In this document: in pieces, positions 13,165-61,260 of the stretch
Position numbering within the stretch: position 1 is the first letter of the stretch
Layout: the number at the start of each line of letters is the position of its first letter
The notes under the pieces: generated by a model
Database searches by the model: none
What the model was told of the DNA's origin: nothing
The model's input: only the letters and a program-made list of their open reading frames with translations
Translations under genes and position numbers: made by a program
Source of the DNA: Acutalibacter sp. 1XD8-33
GTDB taxonomy: Bacteria > Bacillota > Clostridia > Oscillospirales > Acutalibacteraceae
Length of the DNA stretch: 64,000 nucleotides
Reading direction: 5' to 3'
Assembly (NCBI RefSeq): GCF_003612555.1
Contig: NZ_RAZF01000005.1
Location: 62,001-126,000, forward strand

Positions 13165-13880
13165 ACGTTTTGGCCTCCGGCGGCCAGGGTTTCACCCCGG
13201 ACTGGACCAAACTTTTACCCTGGTTAGCTGGGTGCGTTTGCTCCCAGCTTGGTAGAGTTTTGTGAAGCAAAACTCATGACACACGGCGAAATCCCGCCAA
13301 ATCCTCCTACCATTCTTTGCGCCGTGTGCATTGACCGATCCAGCTAGCCAACGTAAAAGATTTGCAGACTTCGCTCTGCGAAGTCTTAGCTTTTTTCAAA
13401 AGCTCGCAGGATGTGGGGTGAGCGTTCTGCCGGATACTTGGCAAAGCCAAGTATTGCAGACAATGCTGCGAACCGACCGAAGCGGGGAAGCTCCCCAGTG
13501 GAGAAGAGTTCATGCAAGCATGAACTCTCCCGACCGAGTCGGCAGACGAGACCAGCTGAGACTCAACGCCCTCAAGGTCTTATCTCTTGACCTTAAACTC
13601 CTGAGAAGCGTATTTTTGAAGTGGTGAATCATAGTTAATGCTCGCTTCGCTCGATTAACTATCCAAGAGGGGGACGGAGAGTTCATCTCACCGTGCGAGA
13701 TGAATCTCTTTTACAACTGAGAAAAAGTTTCCTAGTCCCGGAACCAGCCAGCTCTAGGCGCAGGGAATCAGCCGAAAGGCCCACCCGGCCCTGTGCTCCG
13801 CAATCAAGCAGCGCGCGCACCCACGCGCCCCCCAAACCATTCCCAAAAAGCGTCCGATCCGCCACAGGCGACGGCTTCCC
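13165..13880. repeat. Mosaic intergenic repeat block, 13 kb copy
   Basis: No gene is supported in the 805-bp gap between ymfF and upp. It contains GCCTCCGGCGGC (near 13175), CTTTTACCCTGGTTAG (near 13213), a segment shared with 59232-59315 (GTTTTGTGAAGCAAAACTC), AAGACTTCG hairpins, a TTTTTTCAAAAGCTCGCAGG module, GAGTTCATGCAAGCATGAAC, CCGACCGAGTCGGCAGACGAG in inverted orientation, and a tail (13611-13780) closely matching 24786-24960 that ends in CCAGCCAGCTCT. Small reading frames here cross module borders and have no start signals. Confidence 0.85.
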
Positions 13881-13944
13881 GCGCAATCTCCTCCAAAAAG
13901 TATACCACATTTTCCCCAAAAGGGAAACCCTTCCGGGCGTCGCC

Positions 13945-14583
13945 TCAAATCGTGCCGAAGATCCGGTCCCCCGCGTCCCCCAGGCCGGGGAGGATGTAGC
14001 CGTTCTCGTTGAGCTTTTCGTCCACCGCCGCGCAGTAAATCTGCACGTCCGGGTGGGCCTTGGTGAGGACCTCCAACCCCTCCGGCGCGGCGATGATGCA
14101 CAGGAACTTGATGCTCTTGGGCTGGCTGCGCTTGACGATGGTGATGGCGTCCATGGCGGAACCCCCCGTAGCCAGCATGGGGTCCAGCACGATCACGTCC
14201 CGCTCGGTGATGTCCTGGGGCAGCTTGTTGTAGTACTCCACGGGCTTCAAGGTGTCGTGGTCCCGGTAGAGCCCGATGTGCCCCACCTTGGCCGAGGGCA
14301 CCAGATTCAGCATGCCGTCCACCATGCCCAGCCCCGCCCGGAGAATGGGCACAAAGGCCAGCTTCCGCCCGGCAATCACCTGGGTGGTGGTCTTTTTCAT
14401 GGGCGTCTCCGTCTCTACGTCCATCAGGGGCAGGTCCCGTGTGGCCTCGTAGCACATGAGGTTGGCGATCTCGCTGACCAGCTCCCGGAACTCCTTGGTC
14501 CCCGTGTTCTTGTCCCGAAGGAAGGTGAGCTTGTGCTGAATTAAGGGATGGTCCATCACAAATACATTCTGATAGTCTTCCAT
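13945..14583 (-). CDS. upp: Uracil phosphoribosyltransferase
   Basis: Salvages uracil to UMP using PRPP. PRPP-binding loop [12 protein letters not shown] and the uracil-binding C terminus [13 protein letters not shown] are visible. 212 residues, typical. Lies 12 bases downstream of rpiB on the minus strand, so probably one transcript; the pairing of ribose-5-phosphate metabolism with nucleotide salvage is common in clostridia. Confidence 0.95.
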
Positions 14584-14595
14584 AGTGATCCTCCT

Positions 14596-15042
14596 TTATA
14601 GTTCCCCCGCCTCGATTTTTTCGATCTGTCCCACCCGCCGGGCATGGCGGCCGCCCTCAAAGTCAGTGGTGAGAAAGGCCTCCAAAATTTTCAGCCCCGT
14701 CTCCTGATCCACCACCTTGCCGCCCATGCAAAGCACGTTGGCGTTGTTGTCGTTGCGGGTCAGCCGGGCGCAAAGCTCGTTGGTACATACCGCCGCGCGC
14801 ACGCCCTTTACCTTGTTGGCCGCGATAGAGATACCGATCCCTGTGGAACACACCAGCACGCCCAGGTCGGCCTCTCCGGCGGCTACGGATTTCGCCACCT
14901 CCACCGCGATCAAGGGGTAGTCCACAGATTCCGGGCTGTTCGTACCGTAATCCAGATACTCGATCTCGTGATCCCAAAGATATTTCCGTATTGCCTCGGT
15001 GAGCTCAAAGCCCCCGTGGTCGCAGCCAATTGCTAACCGCAT
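14596..15042 (-). CDS. rpiB: Ribose-5-phosphate isomerase B
   Basis: Interconverts ribulose-5-phosphate and ribose-5-phosphate. CDHGGFELTE at the start and CSTGIGISIAANK with the active-site Cys/Thr are family hallmarks; NANVLCMGG follows. 148 residues, usual length. ATG is preceded by GGAAAGGATG. Upstream is a mosaic repeat, so the rpiB-upp transcript starts in or beyond it. Confidence 0.95.
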   Translation of the reverse strand: MRLAIGCDHGGFELTEAIRKYLWDHEIEYLDYGTNSPESVDYPLIAVEVAKSVAAGEADLGVLVCSTGIGISIAANKVKGVRAAVCTNELCARLTRNDNNANVLCMGGKVVDQETGLKILEAFLTTDFEGGRHARRVGQIEKIEAGEL

Positions 15043-15077
15043 ATCGATTCATCCTTTCCATTTAGACTTCCTGGGAA

Positions 15078-15276
15078 AATATTGTTCTCGAGTAATAGAA
15101 GGCCTCCGGCGGCAGAAACCGTGGTCTCGGCTGCCGCCTCGGTCGGTTCGCAGCGTGTCTGCCACCGGCAGACGCTCACCCTGCGGCAAGACCTTGGGAC
15201 GTTGTCCCAAACCCTACCATGGGGCCCCGAAACTTGGCAAAGCCAAGTTTTCCGCACCTGGACCGCGCAATTTGCC
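15078..15276. repeat. Mosaic intergenic repeat, 15 kb copy
   Basis: The rpiB-tsaB gap carries GCCTCCGGCGGC, TCGGCTGCCGCCTCGGTCGG, a hairpin GTCTGCCACCGGCAGAC, the pair CTTGGGACGTTGTCCCAA and AACTTGGCAAAGCCAAGTT. The same parts occur in other orders at 18, 21 and 48 kb. The last codons of tsaB approach this block. Confidence 0.75.
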
Positions 15277-15999
15277 TCATGTTGTCGATTTCGCAAGAGG
15301 GCTGCCGTGGTTTTCCAATTTCCTCTTTAACTCCCGCTCCGCTTGGGGCATCCGCAGGTACACCGGTAGCAGCCCGGCCGGGTCCGTCCAGGCCCGGCCC
15401 ATGGCCAGCAGGGCCACGCTGCCCGCCCGCTGGAAACGGAGATTTTCCGGAGCCAGCCGGGCCCCCCAGCCGGAAAAGGACTGATGGCACAGCGCCGCCC
15501 CGTCTCCCAGCAGCAGGACCCGGTCCCCATACGGGCGGCACTCCTCGCCGAGCGCCTGGATGGAGAGGGCCCGGTCCTCTGTGAGCCGGGCTAGGGTGTT
15601 TCCGTCTGTCTCAAAAAGAGCGTTGTACACCTGCCCGCATCGGGCGTCCATCACCGCGCAGAGAAGGCTTCCCTTACAAGCAAGCCCGCCAAAAGCGATG
15701 GCCTCCAAGGTAGAGACACCCCGGCAGGGGGTATTCCCCGGCAGAGCCAGCCCCTTCGCGCAGGCCACGCCAATGCGTACGCCGGTAAAGGACCCCGGCC
15801 CGTTGGCCACGGCGATGCCGTCCAGATCCCGGCAGGCCAGCCCTAAATTGCCCAGCAAGGCCTCTATCATGGGCAAAAGCGTCTGGCTGTGGGTCTGCTT
15901 TGTATTGACAAAGAATTCTCCCAGGAGCTTTCCATCCTCCACTACGGCCGCAGAAGCCGCAGAAGCGGAACATTCTATTCCCAAAACCCGCATATTCAC
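15277..15999 (-). CDS. tsaB: tRNA threonylcarbamoyladenosine biosynthesis protein TsaB
   Basis: Scaffold partner of TsaD in t6A37 tRNA modification. An ASKHA-type N terminus (LGIECSASAASAAV) and GPGSFTGVRIGVACAKGLA are diagnostic. 240 residues. ATG overlaps the tsaE stop (15996-15999), so translation is coupled. The last dozen residues (after LKRKLENH) are not conserved and abut a repeat, suggesting that the stop codon was supplied by repeat-derived sequence. Confidence 0.93.
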   Translation of the reverse strand: MNMRVLGIECSASAASAAVVEDGKLLGEFFVNTKQTHSQTLLPMIEALLGNLGLACRDLDGIAVANGPGSFTGVRIGVACAKGLALPGNTPCRGVSTLEAIAFGGLACKGSLLCAVMDARCGQVYNALFETDGNTLARLTEDRALSIQALGEECRPYGDRVLLLGDGAALCHQSFSGWGARLAPENLRFQRAGSVALLAMGRAWTDPAGLLPVYLRMPQAERELKRKLENHGSPLAKSTT

Positions 16000-16424: not shown

Positions 16425-16431
16425 TTTCTTG

Positions 16432-18182: not shown

Positions 18183-18199
18183 GCCCGAATCAAAAAAAC

Positions 18200-18228
18200 T
18201 TGCTTAACTGGTTTCGATATGCTATACT
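18200..18228 (+). promoter_or_regulatory. Promoter reading towards rodA
   Basis: TTGCTT (18200-18205), 17-base spacer, TATACT (18223-18228) on the plus strand. It is divergent from the fhs promoter and would give a leader of about 480 bases crossing the mosaic repeat. Confidence 0.6.
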
Positions 18229-18244
18229 TTAGTTAAGAGTATTG

Positions 18245-18660
18245 ATGGCCTCCGGCGGCTCAGGGGCGTTGGGTCTCAGCTGCCGCTTCGGTCGGCGACG
18301 GGAAATCGCCACTGGCGATTTCCCGTCGCCCCCTAAAAACCCCGCAGCCTTTGAGAAAGGCAAGACTTCGTGAAACGAAGTCTACGAAACATTTTGCCCT
18401 GGTTAGTTTTATCGCACTCAGCTGGCCAGCGTAAAAGTTTTGCTCGAGCTTTTTCAAAAGCTCGCAGGGTGTGGGACGGAGTCCCACGGTCTTGCCCTTG
18501 ACCTTAACGCCTGAGAAGCGCATTTTTTGCGGGGTGAATTGGTAGGCGAAGCCTGCCAAGAGGGGTGCTTTTTGCAAGAATAAAAAGCACCCCTGGAAAC
18601 CGGAACCAGCCGCCCCGCGGGCCGAGAGCCAGCCCAACGCGCTATGCCCGGGGCGCGTCT
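18245..18660. repeat. Mosaic intergenic repeat block, 18 kb copy
   Basis: Opens with GGCCTCCGGCGGC; then a near-perfect hairpin GGGAAATCGCCACTGGCGATTT, CGACGGGAAATCG and CCCCCTAAA; the CCTTTGAGAAAGGC and ACTTCGTGAAACGAAGT hairpins; TGCCCTGGTTAG; TTTTTCAAAAGCTCGCAGGG; GGGACGGAGTCCC; GAGAAGCGCATTTTTT; GGTGCTTTTTGC...AAAAAGCACC; and an end GGAACCAGCCG. The order matches 46.7, 48.3 and (reversed) 60.8 kb. No gene is supported here. Confidence 0.85.
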
Positions 18661-18718
18661 CAAAACCTGTCATATCCTGGTTAACATAAATTTACAATGG
18701 ACAATAAGGGACTATTCT

Positions 18719-20118: not shown

Positions 20119-21399
20119 GTGAAAAAAGAATATATCCACTTAAGACCCTATCTCCTCTTATGGGGCACGCAGTCTCTGTCCGGCCTGGGCAGCGCGATGA
20201 CCAATTTCGCATTGGTTATCTGGTTGTATCAAAGAAGCGGTTCCGCCCTGGAAACCGCCCTGCTGTCCATTTGCAGCTACGCCCCCTATGTATTAACCAG
20301 CATTTTCGCCGGGGCCCTCAGCGACCGCTGGAACAAAAAGCGCACCATGCTGGCCTGCGACTCCCTCGCGGCTCTGTGTACTATCCTGGTGCTGGCGCTG
20401 CTGAAAGCGGGCCGTCTGGAGCCCTGGCATATGTACCTGCTCAACGGGGTAAACGGACTGATGAACACCGTGCAGCAGCCCGCCGGCGATGTGGCCGCAA
20501 CCCTGCTGACTCCCAAGGAATATTACCAAAAGACCAGCGGCCTGCGGTCCCTTTCCCAGTCGCTGATTACCATTTTAACGCCGGCAATCGCCACGGCTCT
20601 GTTTTCCTTCTCCGGCATGGATCTGGTGATCGCTGTAGATCTGTGTACCTTTGCCATTGCCTTCTGCGCCCTGGCCTTCTTCATCTCCATCCCCGAGCCT
20701 CCTCAAAAGGAGAAAGCCCAGGAGAAGCTGCTGTCCTCTGCCAGGGCAGGACTGCGGTGGCTGCAAAAGAACCCTCTGATTTTGCACCTGATTCTGTTTC
20801 TGGCCTGTATCAATCTGGTTGCTTCCGCCTTCAACGCCACCCTCCCGGCTTTCATTCTGCCCCGGGAAAACGGCGGAGAAACCATTTTGGGCCTGGTAAA
20901 CGCCTTTGAGGGCATCGCCGCCTTGGCAGGCAGCGTAACGGCCACTCTTCTGCCCAAGCCGAAGAACCGGATTCGGGTGATCTGCCTATCTCTGATAGTT
21001 TCCATGAGCACAGAAAACTTCCTGCTGGCCTTTGGCCGGTCGCCTTGGATCTGGTGCCTGGGCAGTATTCTGGGGTGGCTGAGCATCCCTTTGATGAACG
21101 CCAATCTGGACGTGGTCTTTCGCAGCTCCATCCCTACGGAAATGCAGGGCAGGGTCTACTCCTGCCGGAATACCCTGCAATTCTTCACCATCCCCCTGGG
21201 CTACTTTCTGGGGGGCCTGTTGGTGGACCGAGTTTTCGAGCCTTTTCTGTCGGTCCATCCCTCCGGTCTGCCCGCGCTACTTTTCGGCTCCGGTAAGGGC
21301 GCCGGCGCGGCGGCGATGCTATTCGTCTTAGGAATCTCCGGGGTACTCGTGTGCGCGGTTTTCCGGCACATTTTGAAAGACTATACTTTTCTAGAATAA
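20119..21399 (+). CDS. MFS transporter
   Basis: A 12-segment major facilitator, about 426 residues. The cytoplasmic loop motif A reads GALSDRWNKKRT and substrate-exporter-like TM5 is present; the architecture resembles macrolide/drug exporters (MefA-like), but substrate is inferred only. GTG at 20119 is preceded by AAAGGAG; an upstream TTG at 20080 lacks a ribosome site. Stands alone on the plus strand, with a mosaic repeat just downstream. Confidence 0.87.
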   Translation: MKKEYIHLRPYLLLWGTQSLSGLGSAMTNFALVIWLYQRSGSALETALLSICSYAPYVLTSIFAGALSDRWNKKRTMLACDSLAALCTILVLALLKAGRLEPWHMYLLNGVNGLMNTVQQPAGDVAATLLTPKEYYQKTSGLRSLSQSLITILTPAIATALFSFSGMDLVIAVDLCTFAIAFCALAFFISIPEPPQKEKAQEKLLSSARAGLRWLQKNPLILHLILFLACINLVASAFNATLPAFILPRENGGETILGLVNAFEGIAALAGSVTATLLPKPKNRIRVICLSLIVSMSTENFLLAFGRSPWIWCLGSILGWLSIPLMNANLDVVFRSSIPTEMQGRVYSCRNTLQFFTIPLGYFLGGLLVDRVFEPFLSVHPSGLPALLFGSGKGAGAAAMLFVLGISGVLVCAVFRHILKDYTFLE

Positions 21400-21765
21400 T
21401 ACTGTGTGGCCTCCGCCGCAAAGGATGCGGCTACGGCAAGATCGTGGGACTCCGGTCTCGCCTAGTCTCGTCTGCCCACTCGGTCAGTTCGCAGCGTTAT
21501 CTGCAATACTTGGCTTTGCCAAGTATCCGGCAGAACGCTCACCCCACACCCTGCGAGCTTTTGAAAAAAGCTAAGACTTCGCAGAGCGAAGTCTACAAAA
21601 CTTTTACCCTGGTTAGCTTGTGAAAAACATCAAAATGTTCACGACGAATGAAATGAGGAGTCACAGTAAAAGTTTCGTCAACCTTTTCAAAGGTTGCGGT
21701 GGTTTGGAGACAGAGTCTCCAAGGTCTTAAAAAGTATACTTTTAAGGTTTTTGACGATGGGCAGC
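21400..21765. repeat. Mosaic intergenic repeat, 21 kb copy
   Basis: Contains AATACTGTGTGGCCTCCG (shared with 24702-24720), TCGTCTGCCCACTCGGTCAG, TACTTGGCTTTGCCAAGTA, CTCACCCCACACCCTGCGAG, TTTTGAAAAAAGCTAAGACTTCG, ACTTTTACCCTGGTTAGC (near 21600) and hairpin AACCTTTTCAAAGGTT. Adjoining TlpA start at 21804; no gene in it. Confidence 0.8.
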
Positions 21766-24490: not shown

Positions 24491-24548
24491 TTATAGTTGA
24501 GGCTGTTTAAAAGAGGGAGAATGTCCTTTTTGAACTGCCTTAACTCTA
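24491..24548. repeat. GTTAACGC-family palindrome, 24 kb copy
   Basis: TATAGTTGAGGCTGTTTAAAAGAGGG...TTGAACTGCCTTAACTC resembles the outer arms of the element at 51731-51865. Decayed copy. Confidence 0.5.
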
Positions 24549-24627: not shown

Positions 24628-24694
24628 CTTCTCTTAGATGATACGGAGCGACCTTTGCCGCGAACATATTTTCAAAAGGGATGCTTTTCAAGAG

Positions 24695-25035
24695 TAATAC
24701 TGTGTAGCCTCCGTCACCACAGAAGAGTTCGCGAGCGAACTCTCGGCGGCTCCGGCAGGAGGGGATTCGAGTCTCGCCTGCGCGCATTTTTGAAGTGGTG
24801 AATAACAGTGAATCCTCGTTTCACTCGGTTAACTGTTGCTTCGCAAAACATCGGCAAGAGGAAACGGAGAGTTCATCTCGTAAAACGAGATGAATCTCTT
24901 TTGCAACTGAAAAAAAGTTTCCTAGTCCCGGGGCCAGCCAGCTCTGGGCACAGTATCTCAGCTCAAAGTTCCCGTCCGGCTGTGTGCCTGTCACCAAGCT
25001 GCCCCGCGCGCCGCCGCCCCCCTATACAAACTCTT
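24695..25035. repeat. Mosaic intergenic repeat block, 24-25 kb copy
   Basis: Contains AATACTGTGTAGCCTCCG, GAGTTCGCGAGCGAACTC, then a tail (24786-24960) closely matching 13611-13780: GGAGAGTTCATCTCG...GAGATGAATCTCTTTTGC, AAAAAGTTTCCTAGTCCCGG and CCAGCCAGCTCTGGGCACAG, and ends GCCCCGCGCGCCGCC. The remaining 24.5-25.27 kb gap shows no gene. Confidence 0.8.
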
Positions 25036-25229
25036 AAAACCTATACCATGAATACCATAGTTTTGCGCTTTTGTGCAGTATCCTTTGTAATGCGCGGTAA
25101 GAGCCTCTCTCAAAAAGGATAATAGGTTCGAGAGTGGTGGTGGAGCTTCCTTGCCGGCTTGGGCGGATCAGAACAATTCCAATATTTTTAACGAATTTTG
25201 CATTTTATCTAGAAAATTTCCTCGAGAAA

Positions 25230-25273: not shown

Positions 25274-26548
25274 ATGAAGAGGGCTTTAATAATTGGGATT
25301 TGGATGCTGGCGCTGCTGCTTTTTTTGCCGGTATCCGCCGGCGCGAAGGATCATCTGGGTTTCCGTGCGGAATTGAGCAGAGACCAGTGTTTCCAGGGAG
25401 AGACTGTGGACTTGACGTTGGACTACGACGGCAGCGTGGGAGAGGTTAGCGCGCTGGTGGCAGAGCTAGAATACGATGCCGGCTGTTGGGAACTTGTCCA
25501 TGGTGATGAGATTTCCGATGGGTATGTAAGTACAGTGACAGGGAACGGCTTCGTGCGCTGGATCTACTCCTTTAGCGAGGGAGAAAATCTCTTTCATAGC
25601 GGTGGGATGAAGTATACGTTTAAGGCCGTTGCGCCCGCCAGCGGCGGGAATTTTAAGCTGGATCTGAGCCAGGGAGCCACGGCGGATGGGCGCATATTTG
25701 ATCCCGAGGATTTTATCTTGCCGGTGGAGGTTTTAACGCCGCCCGACAGTTTGGCCGGGCTCCTGTCGCTTGCCCCTTCCAGTGGAACGCTGACGCCGGA
25801 TTTTTCCCCGGAAGTGGAGGCTTACCGGATCTCCGTGCCATATGAGGTGACAGAGATGCATTTTTCCGCCCGTACCTTATCAGGTGGAAGTTACCGGGTG
25901 AACCGGAAGAATCTGGGGGCGGGCGGCACGGAGACGGAATTTACCATTACGGTAACCGCGGAAGATGGCAAGACCAAAAGAGCATATACTGTGACCGTTT
26001 ACCGGGAGATGAAACCGGCTGTCACGCCTAAGCCTACTGCTACTCCAAAGCCCAGCGGAACACCCAAGCCTACAGCAACACCGAAACCCAGCAAGACGCC
26101 CAAGCCCACGGCAACGCCGAAACCCAGCCAGACGCCCAAGCCCACGGCAGCGCCGAAACCCAGCCAGACGCCCAAACCCACAGCCACCCCAAAGCCCAGC
26201 CAGACGCCCAAACCCACAGCTACCCCAAAGTCCAGTAAGACTCCCAAGCCCACGGCGACCCCAAAGCCTAGCCGGACTCCTAAGCCTACGGCTAGTCCGA
26301 CACCAAGGGAGCCTCCGGTGTATTTGGGAACGAGTCCGGAGCCGCCTGGCGACTCTGATTCGGAGCAGGGAAATGGATCGGGGCTTTTTCATGTGGTGGA
26401 GGGAGCACCTCAAAACTCCAGTCAGAATCTGTTTATCATAGGCATCAGCGCATTCTTCTTGACCGTTGGCATGATAGGAGGCAGAATTGCCGCAAAAATC
26501 CGCAGAGAGATCGGGCTCGGGCGGAAAGGGCCGAAAGATTCCAAGTAG
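25274..26548 (+). CDS. Secreted surface protein with cohesin-like and cadherin-like domains and Pro-Thr-Lys stalk
   Basis: 424 residues: signal peptide (1-24), a cohesin/Big-type beta-sandwich (about 30-155), a cadherin-like beta-sandwich with YTVTVYRE (about 165-245), an eight-unit [12 protein letters not shown] stalk (about 250-345), a low-complexity Ser/Gly linker and a C-terminal membrane helix ([15 protein letters not shown]...) followed by positive residues. No LPxTG seen. The stalk would hold the beta-domains off the wall. No homologous cellulosome dockerin was seen nearby; ligand unknown. Confidence 0.75.
26024..26311 (+). repeat. Eight 36-bp in-frame tandem repeats ([12 protein letters not shown])
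   Basis: Period is exactly 36 bp (12 codons) from 26024; units differ at the third and twelfth codon (Gly, Lys, Gln, Gln, Gln, Lys, Arg, Glu). The last unit is degenerate. Silent changes between copies show age rather than very recent expansion. Confidence 0.9.
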
Positions 26549-26559
26549 ATATGGTTATA

Positions 26560-26607
26560 GTTAACGCATTTGAAACGGGGTAAAACCTCTCTTTTCAAAT
26601 GTGGTTA
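26560..26607. repeat. GTTAACGC-family palindrome, 26 kb copy
   Basis: GTTAACGCATTTGAAA...TTTTCAAATGTGGTTAC: imperfect inverted repeat flanking a short core, ahead of the 26612 terminator. Resembles 51731-51865. Confidence 0.5.
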
Positions 26608-27904: not shown

Positions 27905-28175
27905 TCCTGCCTCCGGCGGCTGAACCCCCAAAGACTTTTTGCGTCGCGCTTTTGGCTCACAGTGTTCCCAGGCTTTTCTCCACGCGGAGCAGGCGGGGCG
28001 GTTTCGTGGGGCTTCTCGAGTCTCAACTCGGTTTGTCTCTCCGTTTTCCTTCGCAAAACTTCCGCCAAGCTGGATATAAAGCGCACATAGCCAACCAGGG
28101 TAAAAGTTTTTGATCCAAACTTTTTTCAAAAAGTTTGGTGGGGTCCAGGGGTGAAACCCCTGGCCGCCGGAGGCC
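27905..28175. repeat. Mosaic intergenic repeat, 28 kb copy (reverse orientation)
   Basis: GCCTCCGGCGGC (27910), TCTCGAGTCTCAACTCGG, then CCAACCAGGGTAAAAGTT (reverse of the 18-base module, near 28091), hairpin AAACTTTTTTCAAAAAGTTT, GGTCCAGGGGTGAAACCCC and GGCCGCCGGAGGC. The block is bounded by the same GCCTCCGGCGGC module at both ends in inverted orientation, so it can form a long terminal inverted structure. Confidence 0.8.
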
Positions 28176-28180
28176 ATGCC

Positions 28181-36153: not shown

Positions 36154-36191
36154 TCTGTTTTCCTCCTGACTCGATATGGTTTTTAGCACTA

Positions 36192-36354
36192 AGAGCCTAT
36201 CCCAAAATAATCCGCACACAGCTTGCTTGCATATTTCCCGCCATAGCACATAGCTTTCGCTTGCCAATCGCGAGATTGGCCGCGCTCAATCTATGCACTC
36301 TAGCAGAAAATCTGACGGCGTAATCTACGCGCGTCTTATTTCGGGATAGGCTCT
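36192..36354. mobile_element. MITE-like element with TA-flanked AGAGCCTATCCC ends
   Basis: 163 bp, 19-bp terminal inverted repeats (AGAGCCTATCCC[A/G]AAATAA), flanked on both sides by TA. No coding capacity. Its core 36214-36316 aligns in opposite orientation with 42294-42396 of the second element at about 82 percent by eye, while the ends share nothing beyond a leading AG. Confidence 0.75.
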
Positions 36355-36394
36355 TATTTTCCGGCACTTACATGGTATGATGGATTCCTGCGGT

Positions 36395-42253: not shown

Positions 42254-42433
42254 TTAAGGAAGCACTGATTAAATCTGGTGCGCAAATCGCACGGTCAGAT
42301 TTTTCGTCAGAGTGTATAGATTGAGCGCAGCCAATCTAACGATTGGCAAGCGAAAACTGTGCGCTATGATGGAAAACATGCAAGCGAGTTGTGTGCCAAG
42401 CCTCTAGGCGCGATTTAATCAGTGCTTCCTTAA
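42254..42433. mobile_element. MITE-like element with perfect 22-bp ends TTAAGGAAGCACTG...
   Basis: 180 bp; perfect terminal inverted repeats of 22 bp, beginning TTAAGGAAGCACTGATT (both ends), TA-flanked if the repeat is read from AGGAAGC. No coding capacity. Core (42294-42396) aligns with the element at 36192-36354 in opposite orientation. Confidence 0.8.
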
Positions 42434-46734: not shown

Positions 46735-46912
46735 AGGCCTCCGACGGTTTAGGGGCGCTGAGTCTCGTCTGCCGACTCGGTCAGCGACGGGAAATCGCCA
46801 CCGGCGATTGTCGCCCCCTAAAGATTCCGCAAACTTTTATCCTGGTCAGCCCGGCGGGAAAATTGGCGAAACTTTCTCCTGGCCAGCTGGGCGAGTTTTG
46901 CGGAACAAAACG
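46735..46912. repeat. Mosaic intergenic repeat, 46 kb copy
   Basis: GGCCTCCGACGG, CTCGTCTGCCGACTCGGTCAG, GACGGGAAATCGCCACCGGCG, CCCCCTAAAG, AACTTTTATCCTGGTCAG and GTTTTGCGGAACAAAAC. The order matches 18.25-18.42 and 48.28-48.44 kb. No gene between the amidase and prfB. Confidence 0.8.
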
Positions 46913-46913
46913 G

Positions 46914-46947
46914 AAAGATAAACCGAGTTGTGCGAGTGTTTATCTTT
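46914..46947 (-). terminator. Terminator after prfB
   Basis: AAAGATAAAC (46914-46923) pairs perfectly with GTTTATCTTT (46938-46947), 14-base loop; T-run on either strand. Ends prfB, which stops at 46970. Confidence 0.7.
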
Positions 46948-46969
46948 TTGTCACTACTGCGAAACCCAG

Positions 46970-48112
46970 CTATATCCTTTCGTCATTGTTCGCGTCGTGT
47001 GCCAGGGCGTTCTGGCTCTTGGCCGTGAGGTACGCATTGATAAAGCCGTCCAGGTCCCCATCCATAACGGCGTTCACGTTTCCCGTCTCATGGCCCGTGC
47101 GGTGGTCCTTCACCATGGTATAGGGCATAAAAACATAGGAGCGGATCTGGCTGCCCCAAGTAATTTCTTTCTGCTCGCCCTTGATATCAGAGATCTTCTC
47201 CAGGTTCTCCCGCTCCTTGATCTCTACCAGCTTAGAGATCAGCATTTTCATGGCCACGTCCCGGTTCTGGTACTGGCTGCGTTCCACCTGGCAGGACACC
47301 ACAATCCCGGTTGGGATATGGATCAGCCGCACGGCGGAGGAGGTCTTGTTCACCTTCTGCCCGCCCGCGCCGGAGGCCCGGTAAACCTCCATCTTGATGT
47401 CGTCCGGGTTGATCTCTACGGAGTTATCCTCCTCGATCTCCGGCATCACCTCCAGGGAGGAAAAGGAGGTATGCCGCCGTCCGGCGGCGTCAAAGGGCGA
47501 CACCCGCACCAGCCGGTGGACCCCGGCCTCGCTCTTCAGATAGCCGTAGGCGTTCTCCCCTTCCACCAGAATAGAGGCGGATTTCAGCCCGGCTTCGTCT
47601 CCGTCCAGATAATCCAGGGTAGTCACCTTAAATCCCCGGCGCTCGGCCCAGCGGTTGTACATGCGGAAGAGCATCTCCGCCCAGTCCTGGGCCTCGGTGC
47701 CGCCGGAACCCGCATGAAAGGTAAGGATGGCGTTGTGGCCGTCATACTCCCCTGTGAGCAGAGTGGTGAGCTTCATGGCGGCTACCGCCTCCCGAACCCC
47801 GTCGATCTCCCCCTGGATCTCCTCCACAAGGGACAGGTCCTCGGCCTCGTCTCCCAGCTCAATCAGGGCGGCTGCGTCCTCGCATCGGGCGCAGAGCTTC
47901 TGATAGCGCTCGTCCTTGTCCTTGAGGCCGGCCATACGTTGGGTGATTTTCTGGGCCTGTTCCATGTTGTCCCAGAAGCCGGGCTCGGCGGTTTTCAGTT
48001 CCAGCATCTCCACCTCTTCCCGCAGGCGGGGAAGTCCCAGAGCCTCCTTCAGCTCCTCCAGCGCGGACTGCTGTTCTTCCACTTGTCTCTTCAGTTCTTC
48101 AAATTGCAGCAT
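46970..48112 (-). CDS. prfB: Peptide chain release factor 2, without programmed frameshift
   Basis: Reads UAA and UGA. 380 residues in one frame from ATG 48112 (MLQFEELKRQVEEQQ). GGQ motif in GAGGQKVNK, and SPF recognition in RVSPFDAAGRRHTSF. The usual in-frame UGA frameshift site after about 25 codons is absent: the reading frame runs straight through, so autoregulation is lost. Upstream ATG at 48136 is less supported. Downstream of mosaic repeats. Confidence 0.94.
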   Translation of the reverse strand: MLQFEELKRQVEEQQSALEELKEALGLPRLREEVEMLELKTAEPGFWDNMEQAQKITQRMAGLKDKDERYQKLCARCEDAAALIELGDEAEDLSLVEEIQGEIDGVREAVAAMKLTTLLTGEYDGHNAILTFHAGSGGTEAQDWAEMLFRMYNRWAERRGFKVTTLDYLDGDEAGLKSASILVEGENAYGYLKSEAGVHRLVRVSPFDAAGRRHTSFSSLEVMPEIEEDNSVEINPDDIKMEVYRASGAGGQKVNKTSSAVRLIHIPTGIVVSCQVERSQYQNRDVAMKMLISKLVEIKERENLEKISDIKGEQKEITWGSQIRSYVFMPYTMVKDHRTGHETGNVNAVMDGDLDGFINAYLTAKSQNALAHDANNDERI

Positions 48113-48204
48113 GATCCTTCCCTCTTTCCAAAGCACATTCCTTTTTATTATAGCGAATTCTTTCTAAAAAGTAAAGAGCCAGAAAATTCCGGGAATGTCC
48201 AAAA

Positions 48205-48680
48205 CGCGCATTTTTAGGACAATGTTTTGGTGTCTCGCCGACCGGCTCGGTCGGGTCAGAACGTTCCCCACTGGGGAACTTCCCCCTCCGGCGGTTTAGG
48301 GGCTCTGAGTCTCGGCTGGTCTCGTCTGCCGACTCGGTCGGCGACGGGAAATTGCCACTGGCGATTATCGCCCCCTAAAGCCCCCGCAACCTTTGAGAAA
48401 GGTACAACTTCGCTTAACGAAGTCTACGAAACTTTTACCCTGGTTAGCTATGTGAGCCCCAACGAAACACATTACGCGGTCAAGGGGCGGGGAAAATCGC
48501 CAGTGGCGAAGAGTTCATGCCTGCATGAACTCTCGTTCTGACCCGACCGAACCGGCAGATGAGACAGGCCCCTTGTGGGGTTTGGGGGTGAGTGTCTGCC
48601 AGTGGTAGACAAGCTACGAACCGACCGAAGCGGCAACTGAGACCCAACGCCCCAAGGTCTTGCCGGAAGGCCCCCCTACT
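48205..48680. repeat. Mosaic intergenic repeat block, 48 kb copy
   Basis: Carries GGACAATGTTTTGGTGTCTCG (matches 8616), CCCACTGGGG, TCGTCTGCCGACTCGGTCGG, GACGGGAAATTGCCACTGGC, CCTTTGAGAAAGG, ACTTCGCTTAACGAAGT, ACTTTTACCCTGGTTAGC (48427), GAGTTCATGCCTGCATGAACTC, and reversed CCGACCGAA. Longest mosaic copy; no gene in the 738-bp prfB-DUF4097 gap. Confidence 0.85.
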
Positions 48681-48850
48681 ACTTCAAAGAAACCACGTTT
48701 TGGACACTCCCACAATCCCACCCAAAAAAACGCAAAAGAAAACGCGGAAGCCCTTTCCCTAAAGCAAGAAAGCCGGTTCCTCCGCATTTTCATACTAAAA
48801 GCCCTATTTCCTATAGCAAGCAAGTTCCCCGGTTTCCCAATGGTAGGCGC

Positions 48851-51730: not shown

Positions 51731-51865
51731 TTTCTCAATGCATAGTAAACGCACTTGAAAATCGGTATCTACCGATTTTCAAGCTGGGCGGCTGAGGAGG
51801 TCGTGACCTCCCCGCCTGGTTCAAAAGAGGGATCCTACCTCTTTTAAACTGCGTTAACTATAGCA
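51731..51865. repeat. Nested triple palindrome bounded by GTAAACGC/GCGTTAAC
   Basis: Outer arms AGTAAACGCA and TGCGTTAACT enclose three hairpins: CTTGAAAATCGGTATCTACC-type (51750-51780), GGCGGCTGAGGAGGTCGTGACCTCC (51787-51818) and AAAGAGGGATCCTACCTCTTT. Relatives at 24491, 26560, 42434 and 55445. Confidence 0.7.
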
Positions 51866-56318: not shown

Positions 56319-56392
56319 AGAAAGGCGGCCCAAAAGGACCGCCAAAAACCTGGTCAATCACCCAGCACTACAACACCCATCATCTATCTTCC

Positions 56393-57184: not shown

Positions 57185-57194
57185 GAGTATCCTC

Positions 57195-57245
57195 CCTTTT
57201 TACGACCTTGGGGTTGTCTCCCCCAAACCCCACAAACTTTTCCCT
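57195..57245. repeat. Mosaic repeat fragment, 57 kb
   Basis: ACGACCTTGGGGTTGTCTCCC, CCCAAACCCCACAAACTTTTCCC matches the reverse complement of 61205-61246 (GTTTGTGGGGTTTGGGGC...CCAAGGTC). Confidence 0.6.
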
Positions 57246-57289
57246 GCTTCCTCACTTCGTTTGTCGCAGACAATCAAATGAAGCGGAGG

Positions 57290-59140
57290 TTATTCCACGG
57301 TAACAGATTTGGCCAGGTTCCGGGGCTTGTCGATGTCGCAGCCCTTCATGGACGCCACATAGTAGGCAAAGAGCTGCAGGGGCAGGATGCTCATGGAGGG
57401 CAGCATAAAGTCCGGGACCTTGGGCACGCAGAACTGCCAGTCTGTCTCCTGGGCCAGCTTCGAGCGCATATCCTCCGTGCCGATACCCAGCACCACCGCG
57501 CCCCGAGCCTTTACCTCCCGGATATTGGCCATCATCTTGTCGAAGAGCTTGCCATAGGTGCAGATGGCGATCACCAGCACCCCATCCTCAATCAAGGAAA
57601 TGGGACCATGCTTCAGCTCGCCGCCGGTGTAGGCCTCGGAGTGGATGTAGGAGATCTCCTTCAGCTTCAGGGAGGCCTCCAGAGACGCGGCATAGTCCAC
57701 GTTCCGGCCGATAAAGTACATATCCCCCGCGTTGAAATACTGGGCGGCAAAGTACTGGATAGCCTCCTTGCCCTCTTCCAGGCACCGTGCCGCCATCTGT
57801 GGAAGCTCTTCCAGCGCCTCCACATACCCCGCCAGCTCTTCTTCCGGCAGGACCCCCAACTCCTGGACCATATACAGGGCGATAAGATAGATCATGGCCA
57901 GCTGGGTGCTATAGGCCTTGGTAGACGCTACGGCAATCTCCGGCCCTGCCCAAGTGTAGAGCACCCCGTCCGACTCGTTGGCGATGGTGCTGCCCACCAC
58001 ATTCACAATGGACAGCGTCCGGGCCCCCTGGCGCTTTGCCTCCCGCAGAGCGGCCAAGGTGTCCGCCGTCTCCCCGGACTGGCTGATGATGATCACCAGG
58101 GTTTTCTCGTCCAGAATAGGGTCCCGGTAACGGAACTCGCTGGCCACGTCCACCTCGATGGGCAGGCGCAGGAGCTTCTCAAAGGCGTACTTGGCTACAG
58201 CTCCCACATGGTAAGAAGTACCGCAGGCCACAATGAAAATCCGGCTGATCCCCTGGATATCCTCCCGGCTCAGGGGGATGTCGTCCAGCTGGATCCGTCC
58301 CTCCCGGATCCGGGGAGAGATGGTCTTTCTCAGGGCCTCGGGCTGTTCGCAGATCTCTTTCATCATAAAGTGCTCATAGCCGCCCTTTTCCGCCGCGGCC
58401 ACGTCCCATTCCACCGTCTCTTCGGGCTTCTCTATGGGATACAGGTCACCGTCGAAAAAGCTGGCCCCGTCCCGCTCCAGCACGGCGATCTCCCTGTCCT
58501 TCAGGCGGCAGATCCGCCGGGTGCGGCTCAATATCGCCGTCACATCCGAGGCGATGAAGTTCTCCCGGTCTCCCAGGCCCACGATCAGCGGGCTGTCCTT
58601 ACGCACGGCGAACACCTTTTCCGGGCAGTCGGCGCAGATGATGCCCAGGGCATAGCTACCTTCCACCCGGTCGGTCACCTGCTTGATGGCCGCCAGCACA
58701 GGGTCAGGGCCCTCGCCATTCCTGCTGTAGTAGTACTCCAGCATCTGGGCCACTACCTCGGTATCCGTGTCGGAGACGAACTCCACACCCCGGCGCTTCA
58801 GGTGGTTTTTCAGGTAGAGATAGTTCTCTATGATGCCGTTGTGCACCACGGCGAAAGTTCCGCCATCGCTGACCTGGGGGTGGGAGTTTACATCCGAGGG
58901 CGCGCCGTGGGTAGCCCAGCGGGTGTGCCCAATGCCCACCGTGCCCGGGAGCGTCTCCCCTTTGTGGAGAATCTCCTCCAGCACCGCCAACCGCCCCTTG
59001 GACTTCACAACATGAAGCCCAGAGTCGTTGTGCACCGCCACGCCGGCGGAGTCATACCCCCGGTACTCCAGCTTCCCAAGGCCCTCCAGCAGCACCGGGG
59101 CCGCCTGCTCCTCTCCAATATAGCCTACAATTCCGCACAT
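57290..59140 (-). CDS. glmS: Glutamine--fructose-6-phosphate aminotransferase
   Basis: First step of UDP-GlcNAc synthesis for wall. Cys2 nucleophile (MCGIVGYIG), glutaminase domain, then two SIS sugar isomerase domains (FIVACGTSYHVGA, QSGETADTLAAL) and C-terminal KSVTVE. 616 residues from ATG 59140; the upstream reading to 59230 enters the repeat. No glmS ribozyme core was recognised upstream. Confidence 0.96.
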   Translation of the reverse strand: MCGIVGYIGEEQAAPVLLEGLGKLEYRGYDSAGVAVHNDSGLHVVKSKGRLAVLEEILHKGETLPGTVGIGHTRWATHGAPSDVNSHPQVSDGGTFAVVHNGIIENYLYLKNHLKRRGVEFVSDTDTEVVAQMLEYYYSRNGEGPDPVLAAIKQVTDRVEGSYALGIICADCPEKVFAVRKDSPLIVGLGDRENFIASDVTAILSRTRRICRLKDREIAVLERDGASFFDGDLYPIEKPEETVEWDVAAAEKGGYEHFMMKEICEQPEALRKTISPRIREGRIQLDDIPLSREDIQGISRIFIVACGTSYHVGAVAKYAFEKLLRLPIEVDVASEFRYRDPILDEKTLVIIISQSGETADTLAALREAKRQGARTLSIVNVVGSTIANESDGVLYTWAGPEIAVASTKAYSTQLAMIYLIALYMVQELGVLPEEELAGYVEALEELPQMAARCLEEGKEAIQYFAAQYFNAGDMYFIGRNVDYAASLEASLKLKEISYIHSEAYTGGELKHGPISLIEDGVLVIAICTYGKLFDKMMANIREVKARGAVVLGIGTEDMRSKLAQETDWQFCVPKVPDFMLPSMSILPLQLFAYYVASMKGCDIDKPRNLAKSVTVE

Positions 59141-59169
59141 ACGCACGCCTCCCTTTTGAGTATTACGTG

Positions 59170-59345
59170 TAATGAAAAGCCTCCGGCGGCTTAGGGAACT
59201 TTTTGGAAAAAGTTCCCTAAGAACCCTCAAAAACTTTTACCCTGGTTAGTTGTGTACGCTTCACATTCAACTTGGCAGAGTTTTGTGAAGCAAAACTCAT
59301 GACACACCGCGAAACCCAGCCTGGGCATTTCACCCCGCTTGGCGC
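59170..59345. repeat. Mosaic intergenic repeat, 59 kb copy
   Basis: GCCTCCGGCGGC, hairpin GGGAACTTTTTGGAAAAAGTTCCC, AACTTTTACCCTGGTTAG (59236) and GTTTTGTGAAGCAAAACTC-ATGACACACCGCG (shared with 13211-13295). Gap glmS-purA has no gene. Confidence 0.8.
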
Positions 59346-59406
59346 GGTGTGCCGGAGGCCTTTCATCACAATAAAACATTTCACAAAACTTTATCAATCC
59401 AAAGCA

Positions 59407-59429
59407 AGAAACCCCTCAGCGGGGTTTCT
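59407..59429 (-). terminator. Terminator after purA
   Basis: AGAAACCCC pairs with GGGGTTTCT around TCAGC; minus-strand transcript continues with TTGCTTT. Ends purA, which stops at 59439. Confidence 0.75.
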
Positions 59430-59438
59430 CAAACGGTC

Positions 59439-60719
59439 TCAGCGGTAGATGATGTCATCCCGGGCGGGGCCGTTGGAGACCATGGTTACCGGCACGCCCA
59501 GGGCCTTCTCGGCGAACTCCACGTAGCGGCGGGCGTTCTCCGGCAGGTCCTCGTATTTTTTGATGCCCCGGATATCGCATTTCCAGCCGGGCAGCACCTC
59601 CAGAATAGGCTTGCACTTTTTCAGCTGAGCCGTAGGCGGGAAGTTGTCGATCCGCTTGCCGTCCAGCTCGTAGGCCACGCACACCGGGATTTCATCCAGA
59701 TAGCCCAGGGCGTCCAGCACGGTGAAAGCCACGTCCGTGGCGCCCTGGACCATGCACCCGTACCGGGCGGCCACCAGATCCAGCCAGCCCACCTGCCGGG
59801 GACGGCCTGTGGTCGCGCCGTATTCTCCCTTGTCGCCGCCGTGCTCCCGGAGAGCCTCGGCCTCATCGCCAAAGATCTCGGACACGAACTCCCCCGCGCC
59901 CACGGCGCTGGAATAGGCCTTGACCACGCAATAGATCTTCTGGATGGCATAGGGCGGGATGCCTCCCGCGCCCACCGCGCCGTAGCCCGCCAGAGGCGAG
60001 GAGGAGGTGGTCATGGGATAGATGCCCATGTCCGGGTCCCGCAGGGAGCCCAGCTGGCCCTCCAGGAGGATGGTCTTGCCCTCCTTCACAGCGTTGTGGA
60101 GCAAGGCGGTGGTGTCCGCTACATAGGGGGTGAGAATCTCCTTGTACTCCATCAGCTTGTTGTAAAGTTCGTCCCGGTCCAGGGGATCCCGGTGGTAGAG
60201 CTGGGTGTAGAGCACGTTCTTGATGCCCAGCACATGGTCGATGCGCTCGTAGATGGCCTCCTTGGTATCAAAGAGGTCGCTGATCTGGAAGCCAATTTTG
60301 GCGAATTTGTCGGAATAGAAGGGGGCGATGCCGGACTTGGTGGAGCCGAAGGCCTTGTCGGCAAGACGGGCCTCTTCCAGGCCGTCCAGCTCCTTGTGGT
60401 AGGGCATGAGGACCTGGCAGCGGTTGGAAATCAAGATCTGGGGGGCGGGCACGCCGCTCTCCACCACATAGTTCAGTTCCTTAACGAAGTTTTCCACAGA
60501 CAGGGCCACGCCGTTGCCGATGATATTGACGATATTCTGCCGGAAGATCCCCGAGGGCAGCTGGTGCAGGGCAAAGCGGCCGTACTCGTTGATGATGGTG
60601 TGCCCGGCGTTGGACCCGCCCTGAAAGCGGATGACGATGTCGGAGTTCTCCGCCAGCACGTCGGTGATCTTTCCCTTGCCCTCGTCGCCCCAGCAGGCAC
60701 CCACAATTGCTTTTACCAT
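59439..60719 (-). CDS. purA: Adenylosuccinate synthetase
   Basis: GTP-dependent conversion of IMP and aspartate to adenylosuccinate. 426 residues; GDEGKGK P-loop-like N terminus, GSNAGHT, TTTSSSPLAG and GRPRQVGWLDL motifs. One-gene unit on the minus strand; purB lies 1 kb away on the same strand. Confidence 0.96.
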   Translation of the reverse strand: MVKAIVGACWGDEGKGKITDVLAENSDIVIRFQGGSNAGHTIINEYGRFALHQLPSGIFRQNIVNIIGNGVALSVENFVKELNYVVESGVPAPQILISNRCQVLMPYHKELDGLEEARLADKAFGSTKSGIAPFYSDKFAKIGFQISDLFDTKEAIYERIDHVLGIKNVLYTQLYHRDPLDRDELYNKLMEYKEILTPYVADTTALLHNAVKEGKTILLEGQLGSLRDPDMGIYPMTTSSSPLAGYGAVGAGGIPPYAIQKIYCVVKAYSSAVGAGEFVSEIFGDEAEALREHGGDKGEYGATTGRPRQVGWLDLVAARYGCMVQGATDVAFTVLDALGYLDEIPVCVAYELDGKRIDNFPPTAQLKKCKPILEVLPGWKCDIRGIKKYEDLPENARRYVEFAEKALGVPVTMVSNGPARDDIIYR

Positions 60720-60784
60720 TTTTCTCCTAGCCTTTCTGAAAAAACTTATGCCAATACTAAAATAATTTGTTGAACTTTTATGCT

Positions 60785-61260
60785 TTTTAAGAGATTTCTA
60801 TGGGGGGAACGGCGCGCGCGGAGGCCCGGTGCGGCCGAGCACCAAGTCCGGGCGGGCGAATCAGCTGGGATACTGCGCCCACAGCCAGTTGGTTCCGGTT
60901 TCCAGGGGTGCTTTTTATTCTCACAATCGGTCCGCTCCGGAGCCCAGGGGACTTTTTTCTCTTGAAAAAAGTCCCCTCTTGGCGCTTCGCGCCAATTCAC
61001 CTTCAAAAAATGCGCTTCTGAGGAGTGAAGGTCAAGGGCAAGACCGTGGAGCTCCGCTCCACACCACGCCACTTTTGAAAAAGGCGCTGGTCTCCGGTGG
61101 AGACCGTCAAGCGCCGACCGAACCGGCAGGTGAGACGACAAAACTTTTACTCTGGTTAGCTCAGCTCAAAAAAGATAAAACGTTCACGACGAACGAAGTG
61201 AGGAGTGGGTAAAAGTTTGTGGGGTTTGGGGCAAAGCCCCAAGGTCTTAAAAAGTATACG
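60785..61260. repeat. Mosaic intergenic repeat block, 61 kb copy (reverse)
   Basis: Reversed copy of the 18 kb and 25 kb block: GGCGCGCGCGGAGG, CAGCTGGGATACTGCGCCC, GGTTCCGGTTTCC, CAGGGGACTTTTTTC...GAAAAAAGTCCCCT, GCGCTTCGCGC, AATGCGCTTCTGAGG, CCGACCGAACCGGCAGG, AACTTTTACTCTGGTTAG (61143) and GTGGGGTTTGGGG. No gene in this gap. Confidence 0.8.

Follow-up and report, generated by a model that had tools for sequence, protein, structure and literature searches.

A 64-kb stretch of the genome of the gut bacterium Acutalibacter sp. 1XD8-33 (positions 62,001-126,000 of NZ_RAZF01000005.1, hereafter the window) contains intergenic islands built of short repeated modules, and we wanted to know what these modules are and how they came to be there. 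A preliminary description had named twelve such sites, with modules changing order and orientation from one to the next. A self-comparison that covered the window and another 400 kb of this genome placed a repeat island at each of the twelve or no more than about 0.2 kb away (Table 1), and the order and orientation of the modules do vary between sites. The accompanying statement that the family occupies nearly every large gap was too strong, as the gaps at 36.2, 42.3 and 51.8 kb contain other inverted-repeat elements. It had also been considered that the modules might be confined to the window or be copies of a single insertion sequence (IS); they in fact occur throughout the genome, and they do not consist of copies of a single IS.

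Table 1. Repeat islands and modules in the window, in order of position.
Feature	Position	Strand	Basis and remarks
Small island with divergent H copy (8629-8675)	8590-8675	+	Self-comparison repeat 8631-8661; structure model
Island 1, ~0.76-kb mosaic	13145-13909		Self-comparison repeat 13189-13830; left edge by eye; right edge resembles an inverted-repeat end (TATACTTTTTGGAGG, 14.6 bits, minus strand)
E (AACTTTTACCCTGGTTAG)	13209-13239	+	One of seven listed family copies in the window, identity 71-87%; others at 21598, 46831, 46868, 48429, 59231, 61141
J hairpin ACTTGGC-NNN-GCCAAGT, co-varying foot	13430-13455		Further copies at 15226, 21502
H	13484-13554	-	47.6 bits; in P2 loop of another H
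Island 2	15101-15260		Self-comparison repeat 15101-15217; right edge by eye
H	15122-15180	+	57.2 bits
Island 3, begins at promoter-like TATA region	18220-18668		Self-comparison 18249-18611; edges by eye
H	18271-18327	+	53.9 bits; host hairpin AGGGGC..CCCCT
K (GAGAAGCGCATTTTT .. hairpin .. GGAAACCGGAACCAGCC)	18505-18611	+	Between copies, the stem varies as a whole
Island 4	21380-21741		Self-comparison 21397-21729; inverted-repeat-like ends, 10.4 (left, degenerate) and 22.1 bits
H	21463-21528	+	22.2 bits
Island 5	24680-25045		Self-comparison 24707-25033; edges by eye
Island 6	28043-28176		Self-comparison
Island 7	46738-47002		Self-comparison repeat 46754-47002
H	46760-46815	+	65.2 bits
Island 8, four H copies, both orientations	48191-48690		Self-comparison 48227-48664; right edge by eye
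H	48230-48285	+	58.0 bits
H	48317-48372	+	65.8 bits; preceded by P2 half of another H
H	48489-48567	-	45.0 bits; holds inserted 24-bp palindrome AGAGTTCATGC..GCATGAACTCT
H	48587-48645	-	44.8 bits
Small island fragment	57231-57271		Self-comparison
Island 9	59189-59361		Self-comparison
Island 10, element bounded by inverted repeats TATGCTTTTTAAGAG / GTCTTAAAAAGTATA	60779-61258		Self-comparison 60890-61249; 22.1 bits at each end
H	61083-61138	-	75.7 bits; at 5' foot of CTTTTTCAAAAG hairpin

The module that we named H is about 52-75 bp long and consists of GTCTC, a 3-bp stem of the form R-N-C[TGCC]G-N-Y, TCGGTCGG, and a weak stem (P3) around a 5-7 bp hairpin with an ACY tip (P4), with a second hairpin in some copies. 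Its core, GTCTC..TCGGTCGG, occurs in 149 exact copies genome-wide, about one per 24 kb. When up to two mismatches were allowed, the window gave 11 matches and 100 shuffled versions gave none; a structure model likewise returned 11 window matches, with E-values of 1.3e-4 or better. H was detected in 18 of the 28 other genomes of the genus and, across the order Oscillospirales, in at least 45 of 295 sampled genomes; the exact pattern is missing from 10 of 29 same-genus genomes. The unpaired letters of H, some of which were set by the search pattern, are conserved across the order, and the stems are largely free in sequence while keeping their complementarity. The modules had been described as absent from coding regions, which holds in substance, although 12 of 65 H matches in 464 kb overlap a predicted open reading frame (ORF) of at least 200 aa. 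A fuller ORF list raises the overlaps to 14, each lying no further than 170 nt from the start of an ORF, or 111 nt from its stop, and simple ORF prediction is uncertain at such places.

The modules differ in age. H is order-wide, but AACTTTTACCCTGGTTAG (module E), with 112 copies in this genome at up to one mismatch, was found elsewhere only once, in the near relative G024, and in none of 149 other genomes of the family.

A literature search returned no earlier description of H. Screening with Rfam covariance models gave no family over cut-off in the window and, at five H loci, nothing over cut-off except a true tRNA. Below cut-off the matches are weak and unrelated: the 24-bp palindrome hits whalefall-1 at E 0.09, and a 201-base stretch of locus L119 hits several models, miRNA ones among them, with E-values of 0.02 upwards.

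The two arms of the H stems change together: covariation was 0.434 versus 0.124 after shuffling in 40 sequences hand-picked from 93 selected ones and pre-filtered for the P4 hairpin, and 0.533 versus 0.139 in 119 distinct rows fitted to the model. P2, which played no part in the selection of rows, has both of its variable pairs standard in 114 of 122 H copies from outside, 86 of these being one combination. P2 and P4 together contain 1699 Watson-Crick cells, 23 G-U cells and 25 A-C cells. A tRNA acceptor-stem control, small at 12 informative cells, gave 10 G-U versus 2 A-C. The absence of a G-U excess over A-C in P2 and P4 suggests that H pairing is kept at the level of DNA. P3 leans the opposite way (26 G-U, 17 A-C), with 189 other mispairs.

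We considered whether the islands are mobile. Three islands that were checked are missing at the matching gaps of nine same-genus genomes, a comparison that left out G024, a relative with more shared modules whose assembly is 60% complete. Islands 1 and 3 are each missing from the corresponding gap in all nine, and at the Island 2 gap of relative G022 the aligned flanks are separated by 5 bp; the flanks of the relatives are too diverged for reading the insertion scars of whole islands. For H itself, an "empty" counterpart was found for 42 of 147 copies, at least three of the 42 being tandem copies and not true empty sites. In these pairs, H stands in place of, or directly beside, a portion of an older hairpin, frequently the tip; a few host bases are replaced, within a search blind to losses of more than 6 bases between matched flanks, and none of the 42 pairs has an overlap indicating target duplication. 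The junction lies within 1 nt of the apical loop in 21 of 37 cases versus 12.7 expected, in rows that are not independent, and away from it in the other 16; a stricter rule places 5 of 38 at the loop. H was also found nested within the P2 loop of other H copies. All 12 H copies of the GT..AC stem type in this genome are nested in another H, as against 2 of 38 copies of other types, and much of the nesting may therefore stem from one old composite copied repeatedly. In two other genomes H sits at the variable-loop position of tRNA-Pro-like fragments, as placed by eye.

The preliminary description recognised no REP, BIME or ordinary IS remnants in the modules and offered three functions for them: mRNA elements, satellites grown by recombination and non-autonomous mobile pieces. 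The last fit best, because of the clean presence or absence, the empty orthologous gaps and the nesting in loops. An mRNA element is less likely, since the two well-aligned stems have no G-U excess and with respect to co-directional genes H lies in sense 13 times and in antisense 21 times, which is no significant bias (p 0.23). We give about an even chance to the reading in which each island is a composite of gene-less DNA hairpins that seek out loops, lodging in the loop or at the foot of a hairpin already in place and so coming to nest in one another. A folded single strand, for example of the lagging-strand template, would be handled by an enzyme or by the replication machinery, the stems would be maintained by arm-to-arm copying or by selection at the DNA level, and lineage-confined modules may have been amplified recently by the same route. 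A bolder version, which we put forward tentatively and hold to be on the improbable side, makes H the founder of a class of mobile DNA without genes that has not been described before. H would be recognised as a folded single strand through its conserved loops (GTCTC, TGCC, TCGGTCGG and ACY), and it would insert without target duplication into the unpaired tips of other DNA hairpins, among them further H copies and tRNA genes, with an as yet hypothetical enzyme spreading it through the Oscillospirales.

Conserved loops with variable stems are the usual pattern of a structured RNA, and this weighs against mobile DNA. H, and perhaps other modules, could be a structured RNA in mRNA leaders, spacers or tails (a processing or protein-binding site, a ribozyme or a small RNA) that was spread by recombination because it is useful, which we regard as unlikely but a serious contender. 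The order-wide conservation of unpaired letters agrees with this, as do z-scores of -6.1 to -8.1, marking strong folding, from three folds covering two islands, the lean of P3 towards G-U, and the location of 48 of 87 classed islands between co-directional genes, against a background of 182 of 312 for all neighbouring ORF pairs. The wobble counts of P2 and P4, the lack of a sense bias, the occurrence of both orientations in one island and the Rfam result argue against it, and so does a density of about one exact copy per 24 kb here in a genus where 10 of 29 genomes have none by the exact pattern.

Growth of the islands might also be passive, with replication template-switching and recombination between copies making, correcting and inserting hairpins without a dedicated enzyme. 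The few host bases replaced without target duplication would fit, as would the near-perfect arms with few one-sided changes and stems that vary as units. However, neither the fact that the unpaired letters of H are conserved throughout the order nor the distribution of AACTTTTACCCTGGTTAG, abundant here, present at least once in G024 and missing from the 149 other family genomes, is readily explained in this way, and we consider this origin quite improbable.

The inverted-repeat elements raise the question of whether the islands are ordinary MITEs, that is, TA-target elements moved by an IS630/Tc1-type transposase, with an interior that is only incidentally rich in hairpins. These elements, 51 bp or 242-638 bp long, have TATACTTTYTRAGAG-like ends with TA at most tips (seven long and eight 51-bp ones at 20 fetched places), and Island 10 has both ends. 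Yet only 22 of 166 island ends reach 10 bits, where the wrong orientation, as a control, gives 6; both ends reach it in 5 of 83 islands; the exact end occurs in 1 of the 28 other genus genomes, in contrast to 18 for H. The insertion of modules within modules is left unexplained. No clean empty site was found for the TA-ended elements, and no autonomous partner with matching ends emerged when DDE_3 and end-pair spacing were examined, the sole DDE_3 transposase found being without such ends. We judge this explanation very unlikely.

Comparison of Y1 transposases with H across the 29 genus genomes identified no mobilising enzyme. Y1 matches occur in nine of them and do not track with H: G023 (55 H, 86% complete) and G043 (40 H, 85% complete) are H-rich with no Y1 match, and G010 has two Y1 matches and no H. 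By eye, the 3.4 kb around L059, the intact Y1 gene of this genome, contains no H or island module, only a copy of another MITE-like repeat. We find it scarcely credible that such a transposase moves H as a REP-like palindrome, despite the many mostly intergenic palindromic copies of H, its complementary changes and a 5' tag beside a hairpin (GTCTC here, GT(A/G)G in REPs; PMC2817692): neither the H pattern nor the alignment contains a GTAG/CGTC tag.

If the mobile-hairpin reading is right, some percent of the genome consists of hairpins colonising hairpins, perhaps in related gut and rumen bacteria too, and H would be a conserved, searchable handle for tracing the enzyme. The islands would also offer a bacterial system for how folded single-stranded DNA is copied and joined in vivo. 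Co-varying intergenic stems would then by themselves be no proof of a functional RNA, and counting G-U against A-C would be a simple check.

Among known bacterial repeats, BOX is built as A-B-C, and neisserial intergenic mosaic elements are composite repeats. In both, the modules lie in line, unlike the loop-nested modules here, a comparison made by description and not by sequence. Composition from intergenic sub-modules is shared with both, BOX being a modular repeat of Streptococcus pneumoniae (PMC3049150). The REP/BIME/REPIN repeats with RAYT transposases (PMC2817692) resemble the islands as short, mostly intergenic palindromes in more than 100 copies that form mosaics, with complementary changes and a 5' tag adjoining the hairpin. 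The islands differ in having no GTAG/CGTC tag, several unrelated modules and no associated Y1 gene found, and H in being multi-helix, with conserved internal letters, and nested inside hairpin tips. Some IS elements use REP palindromes as targets (PMC1525189) and are likewise mobile DNA inserting at palindromes, whereas H is gene-less and itself a hairpin. Like bacterial MITEs (PMC10969869), the modules are non-autonomous, and some islands, a minority, finish in inverted repeats that mostly end in TA; the majority show no such ends, and the internal hairpin grammar and the order-wide H set them apart. A further comparison is with the repetitive and double-hairpin elements of mitochondria and the GC clusters of yeast (PMC2800124, PMC4478555). 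These too are hairpins that do not code, and they have spread into the DNA between genes, into RNA genes and to positions beside other hairpins. The sponge elements have conserved stems and variable loops (PMC2800124), the reverse of H, and H lies in a bacterial chromosome and is order-wide. With this class the islands share presence or absence at orthologous sites and insertion at or inside other hairpins.

The islands are a real and unusual system of nested hairpins that extends through the whole genome, with one structured module found across the order. The preliminary description had reported that repeat mosaics assembled from a small vocabulary of modules fill at least twelve intergenic sites, and had proposed a self-alignment. 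We compared the window and a further 400 kb from elsewhere in the same genome (G000; 3.62 Mb, 106 contigs), 464 kb together, with themselves. With an island taken as at least five overlapping repeat matches, 116 islands were found, in the window as well as in the wider genome, which together make up 32.5 kb, or 7.0% of the 464 kb; this density is biased upward because the 20 additional stretches were picked partly for holding matches, and the tally takes in copies of a separate MITE-like repeat. All 12 named positions coincide with islands, and the modules proved, by eye, to be real and mostly small hairpins with short tips. Nor are they confined to the window: the core of the most widespread module, named H (about 52-75 bp), has 149 exact copies in the genome, and AACTTTTACCCTGGTTAG has 112 at up to one mismatch. 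Extrapolation from the exact H counts (39 in the 464 kb analysed and 149 in the whole genome) suggests about 290 H copies, with 3-4% of the genome in islands. Neither the self-comparison nor a scan with the H model detected an island or an H in a 53-kb prophage-like stretch (C17:1-53983, loci L031-L033) with portal, terminase, tail and VapE-like genes, as is expected if the modules accumulate in resident DNA.

Exact copies of H were identified with the pattern GTCTC-R-N-CTGCCG-N-Y-TCGGTCGG, the reversed form of which gave no match in G000. No earlier description of an H-type element was found in the literature searched. Alignment of the copies showed stems P2 (3 bp), P3 (3-4 bp) and P4 (5-7 bp, the tip usually ACY), with an optional extra hairpin. 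Conservation of the fixed pattern letters follows partly from the construction of the search, and variants found by the structure model instead of the pattern still keep most of these letters. The covariance test proposed in the preliminary description bore out a conserved fold: 16 of 19 pairs changed on both sides, and covariation was 0.434, compared with 0.124 for shuffled and at most 0.095 for slid alignments, in 40 hand-picked rows in which P4 is favoured, since rows were pre-filtered for a P4 hairpin (passed by 93 of 101 outside copies and 40 of 50 own copies) and the 40 were picked from the 93 left after a further filter on tip and length. For P2, to which no row filter applied, both variable pairs are standard in 114 of 122 outside copies, one combination accounting for 86 of the 122. 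A wider set of 119 distinct rows, in an alignment fitted to the model, gave 0.533 against 0.139. A putative host stem closing round H, P1, was rejected as part of the module, as the longest closing stem barely exceeds that of shuffled pairings (6.8 against 6.5 in outside copies and 7.1 against 7.0 in own copies). A known RNA family was likewise rejected, the only Rfam match above the cut-off in the window and in five H loci being to true tRNA. Divergent forms of H were also seen, namely GTCTCCGCT(G)CCGCTYCGGTCGG and GTCTCGCCTGCGGGCTCGGTCAGG (L207-L223, L201 and L202), the latter with a differing 3' end.

Of 29 same-genus genomes, G000 counted, 19 have the exact H pattern. A scan of bacterial and archaeal genomes matched at least 111 stretches, and the hosts among the matches listed are rumen Ruminococcus MAGs, Acutalibacter, Caccousia, Neglectibacter, Eubacterium coprostanoligenes, two Lachnospiraceae and one record titled Alistipes. 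Neglectibacter sp. X58 and strain D16-76 are cultured carriers among them. The Alistipes record (L117, uncultured Alistipes sp., another phylum) has one exact match, for which a binning error or transfer is possible. With the structure model, the window gave 11 strong matches and the additional 400 kb gave 65 (E up to 0.1). Among genomes sampled evenly over the order, at least 45 of 295, and at least 31 of 148 genera, have H; both are lower bounds because scoring was limited to 18 candidates per genome. A wide spread through the phylum was rejected: matches occurred in seven of 398 sampled genomes, with strong ones only in G000 and the class-mate G542 (five), and the remaining five genomes had single weak matches, seen as alignment rows only (four, from other classes, score 28.6-32.1 bits, and one, from the same class, 32.3). 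Viral carriage was rejected as well, the viral collection having given only seven matching stretches. In rumen Ruminococcus-type loci (L075, L081, L102, L112, L171 and similar ones), H often lies inside a recurrent hairpin unit, by eye CCCTCCGTC..GCCACC (H) ..AAGGGAGG.

The other modules showed a different range. AACTTTTACCCTGGTTAG was absent from 149 other genomes of the family, just one of which (G010) is of the same genus; the near relative G024 has an exact copy (L051), that is, the AACTTTTACCC module exists outside G000 too. Patterns for modules E, J, D, K and G gave no match in the H-bearing or island-gap loci (3.0-21.9 kb per genome) of eight other genomes of the genus; these loci did contain H, and G005 had the GCCTCCGGCGGC module as well. 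In other genera, some loci have simple C1, J and A hairpins. From the contrasting ranges of H and of AACTTTTACCCTGGTTAG, E, J, D, K and G, it follows that H is old and shared, and that several modules of the preliminary description look like amplifications within the G000 lineage.

Many modules are placed, by eye, within another hairpin's loop or at its foot. The 11 copies of the K hairpin keep a constant core, TTTT..AAG..AAAA, and have seven different 5' arms, each matched by its exact complement opposite over 7-9 bases. Two islands that were folded are far more stable than shuffles (z -6.1 for the first; -8.1 and -6.2, one per strand, for the second). A 24-bp palindrome, AGAGTTCATGC..GCATGAACTCT (window 13506-13528), had a sub-threshold match to Rfam whalefall-1 (E 0.09) that is probably due to chance.

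Genes flanking the islands are collinear in relatives. Between the aligned flanks, the same-genus genome G022 and G000 have 72 versus 790 bp for the island at 13.2 kb of the window, 5 versus 254 bp at 15.1 kb, and 120 versus 505 bp at 18.2 kb. None of 14 module patterns was found in the nine relative stretches fetched for these three gaps, where the relatives' flanks are too diverged for scars to be read. For 42 of 147 H copies there is a partner site without H in which at least 29 of 40 flank letters are alike; at least three of these pairs (L099, L153 and L200) are tandem copies and not true empty sites. An overlap that would signal target duplication was found in none of the 42, in a search that allowed up to six bases between host flanks and trimmed seven per side, with larger losses out of its reach. 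In the clearest pair (L135), from one rumen MAG with identical flanks, the empty site is GCAAGGGC-AGC-GCCCTTGC, and the filled site has the same stem with the tip swapped for four bases, H and one base. When 37 empty sites were folded, 21 had the junction at most one base from an apical loop, where other positions would predict 12.7 (p 0.005), the rows being not independent and two of them (L099 and L153) tandem copies. This distance rule was adopted after a stricter rule, which scored junctions one base within the stem as stem, had called 5 of 38 junctions apical; the difference of one row is a self-matching tRNA that was removed. Some non-apical junctions fall at a hairpin's 5' foot. H lies inside the TGCC loop of another H in 12 of 12 own copies with the GT..AC stem and in 2 of 38 of other types, a nesting that may be one old composite, many times copied. 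By eye, H occupies the variable-loop position in tRNA-Pro-like fragments, both in G542 (L200:1440-1900) and in Lachnospiraceae AC2029 (L134 near 6432-6500). The place is apparently the same in both genomes; L200 carries a head-to-tail H pair twice, and a true tRNA-Pro gene adjoins its H copies.

Over all rivals we favour the reading that H and the islands are DNA hairpins that seek loops and carry no genes, for which mobility is predicted, and we consider it about as probable as all else together. A structured RNA role for H is conceivable but rather unlikely. Pairing that serves RNA should tolerate G-U and reject A-C, and across 180 distinct rows, 61 of them own and 119 outside, stems P2 and P4 contain 1699 Watson-Crick, 23 G-U and 25 A-C cells (binomial p 0.89), though the model itself should favour G-U. 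The control, the acceptor stems of tRNAs in the fetched loci, gave ten G-U and two A-C (p 0.04) in 23 usable of 33, ten having been dropped for forming fewer than five of seven pairs. The more poorly aligned P3 gave 26 G-U and 17 A-C. Amid co-directional genes, H is sense in 13 cases and antisense in 21 (p 0.23). Because G-U does not exceed A-C in P2 and P4 and there is no sense bias, the data argue for, without proving, pairing maintained at the DNA level, which would be through selection on a folded strand or through one arm being copied from the other. That the hairpins have merely grown passively we hold to be improbable.

Ordinary MITEs are a very unlikely explanation of the islands, as recognisable ends are present on both sides of only 5 of 83, and as an IS630-type transposase is represented by a single DDE_3 match without matching ends. 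The end concerned, TATACTTTYTRAGAG, occurs 95 times in G000 at up to one mismatch, against four for the reversed control; its exact form was found once, in one of 28 other genomes of the genus. At up to two mismatches, such ends bound eight 51-bp and seven 242-638-bp elements in 20 fetched places, with TA at most tips. Given the 5 of 83, they are one vehicle and not the general rule, and the idea that all islands are inverted-repeat elements is true of a minority only. Some of the 51-bp palindromes directly adjoin pieces of the separate MITE-like family. The separate inverted-repeat element listed in the table looks like an ordinary TA-ended MITE, and the first listed place of the other small family is flanked by TAAGAGCCTATCCC / GGGATAGGCTCTTA ends. 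Seven in-register copies of a 36-nt direct repeat (window 25988-26347) lie within a long ORF (25274-26548).

Inverted-repeat elements in the window and elsewhere in G000
Feature	Location	Remark
Island with both TATACTTTYTRAGAG-type ends	window 60779-61258	further example of the long element
51-bp palindromic elements with TATACTTTYTRAGAG ends	G000 C12:14258-14308, C39:139362-139412, others	
Separate inverted-repeat element, about 105-120 bp (TATAGTTAACGC.. / TATAGTAAACGC..)	window 51742-51862	many G000 copies
Partial relatives of the separate element	window 24492-24535, 26556-26598	
Another small inverted-repeat family	window 36190-36356 and 42280-42396	117-nt inverted match, 80% complementary

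A REP/RAYT system is scarcely credible, since the tests of H for a REP tag and for the transposase were both negative. The Y1 (IS200/REP-type) transposase was rejected as a driver, its presence not tracking H among the 29 genomes. Apart from these two tests, the nested hairpin system works like that of REPs, and it works like that of mitochondrial hairpin elements.
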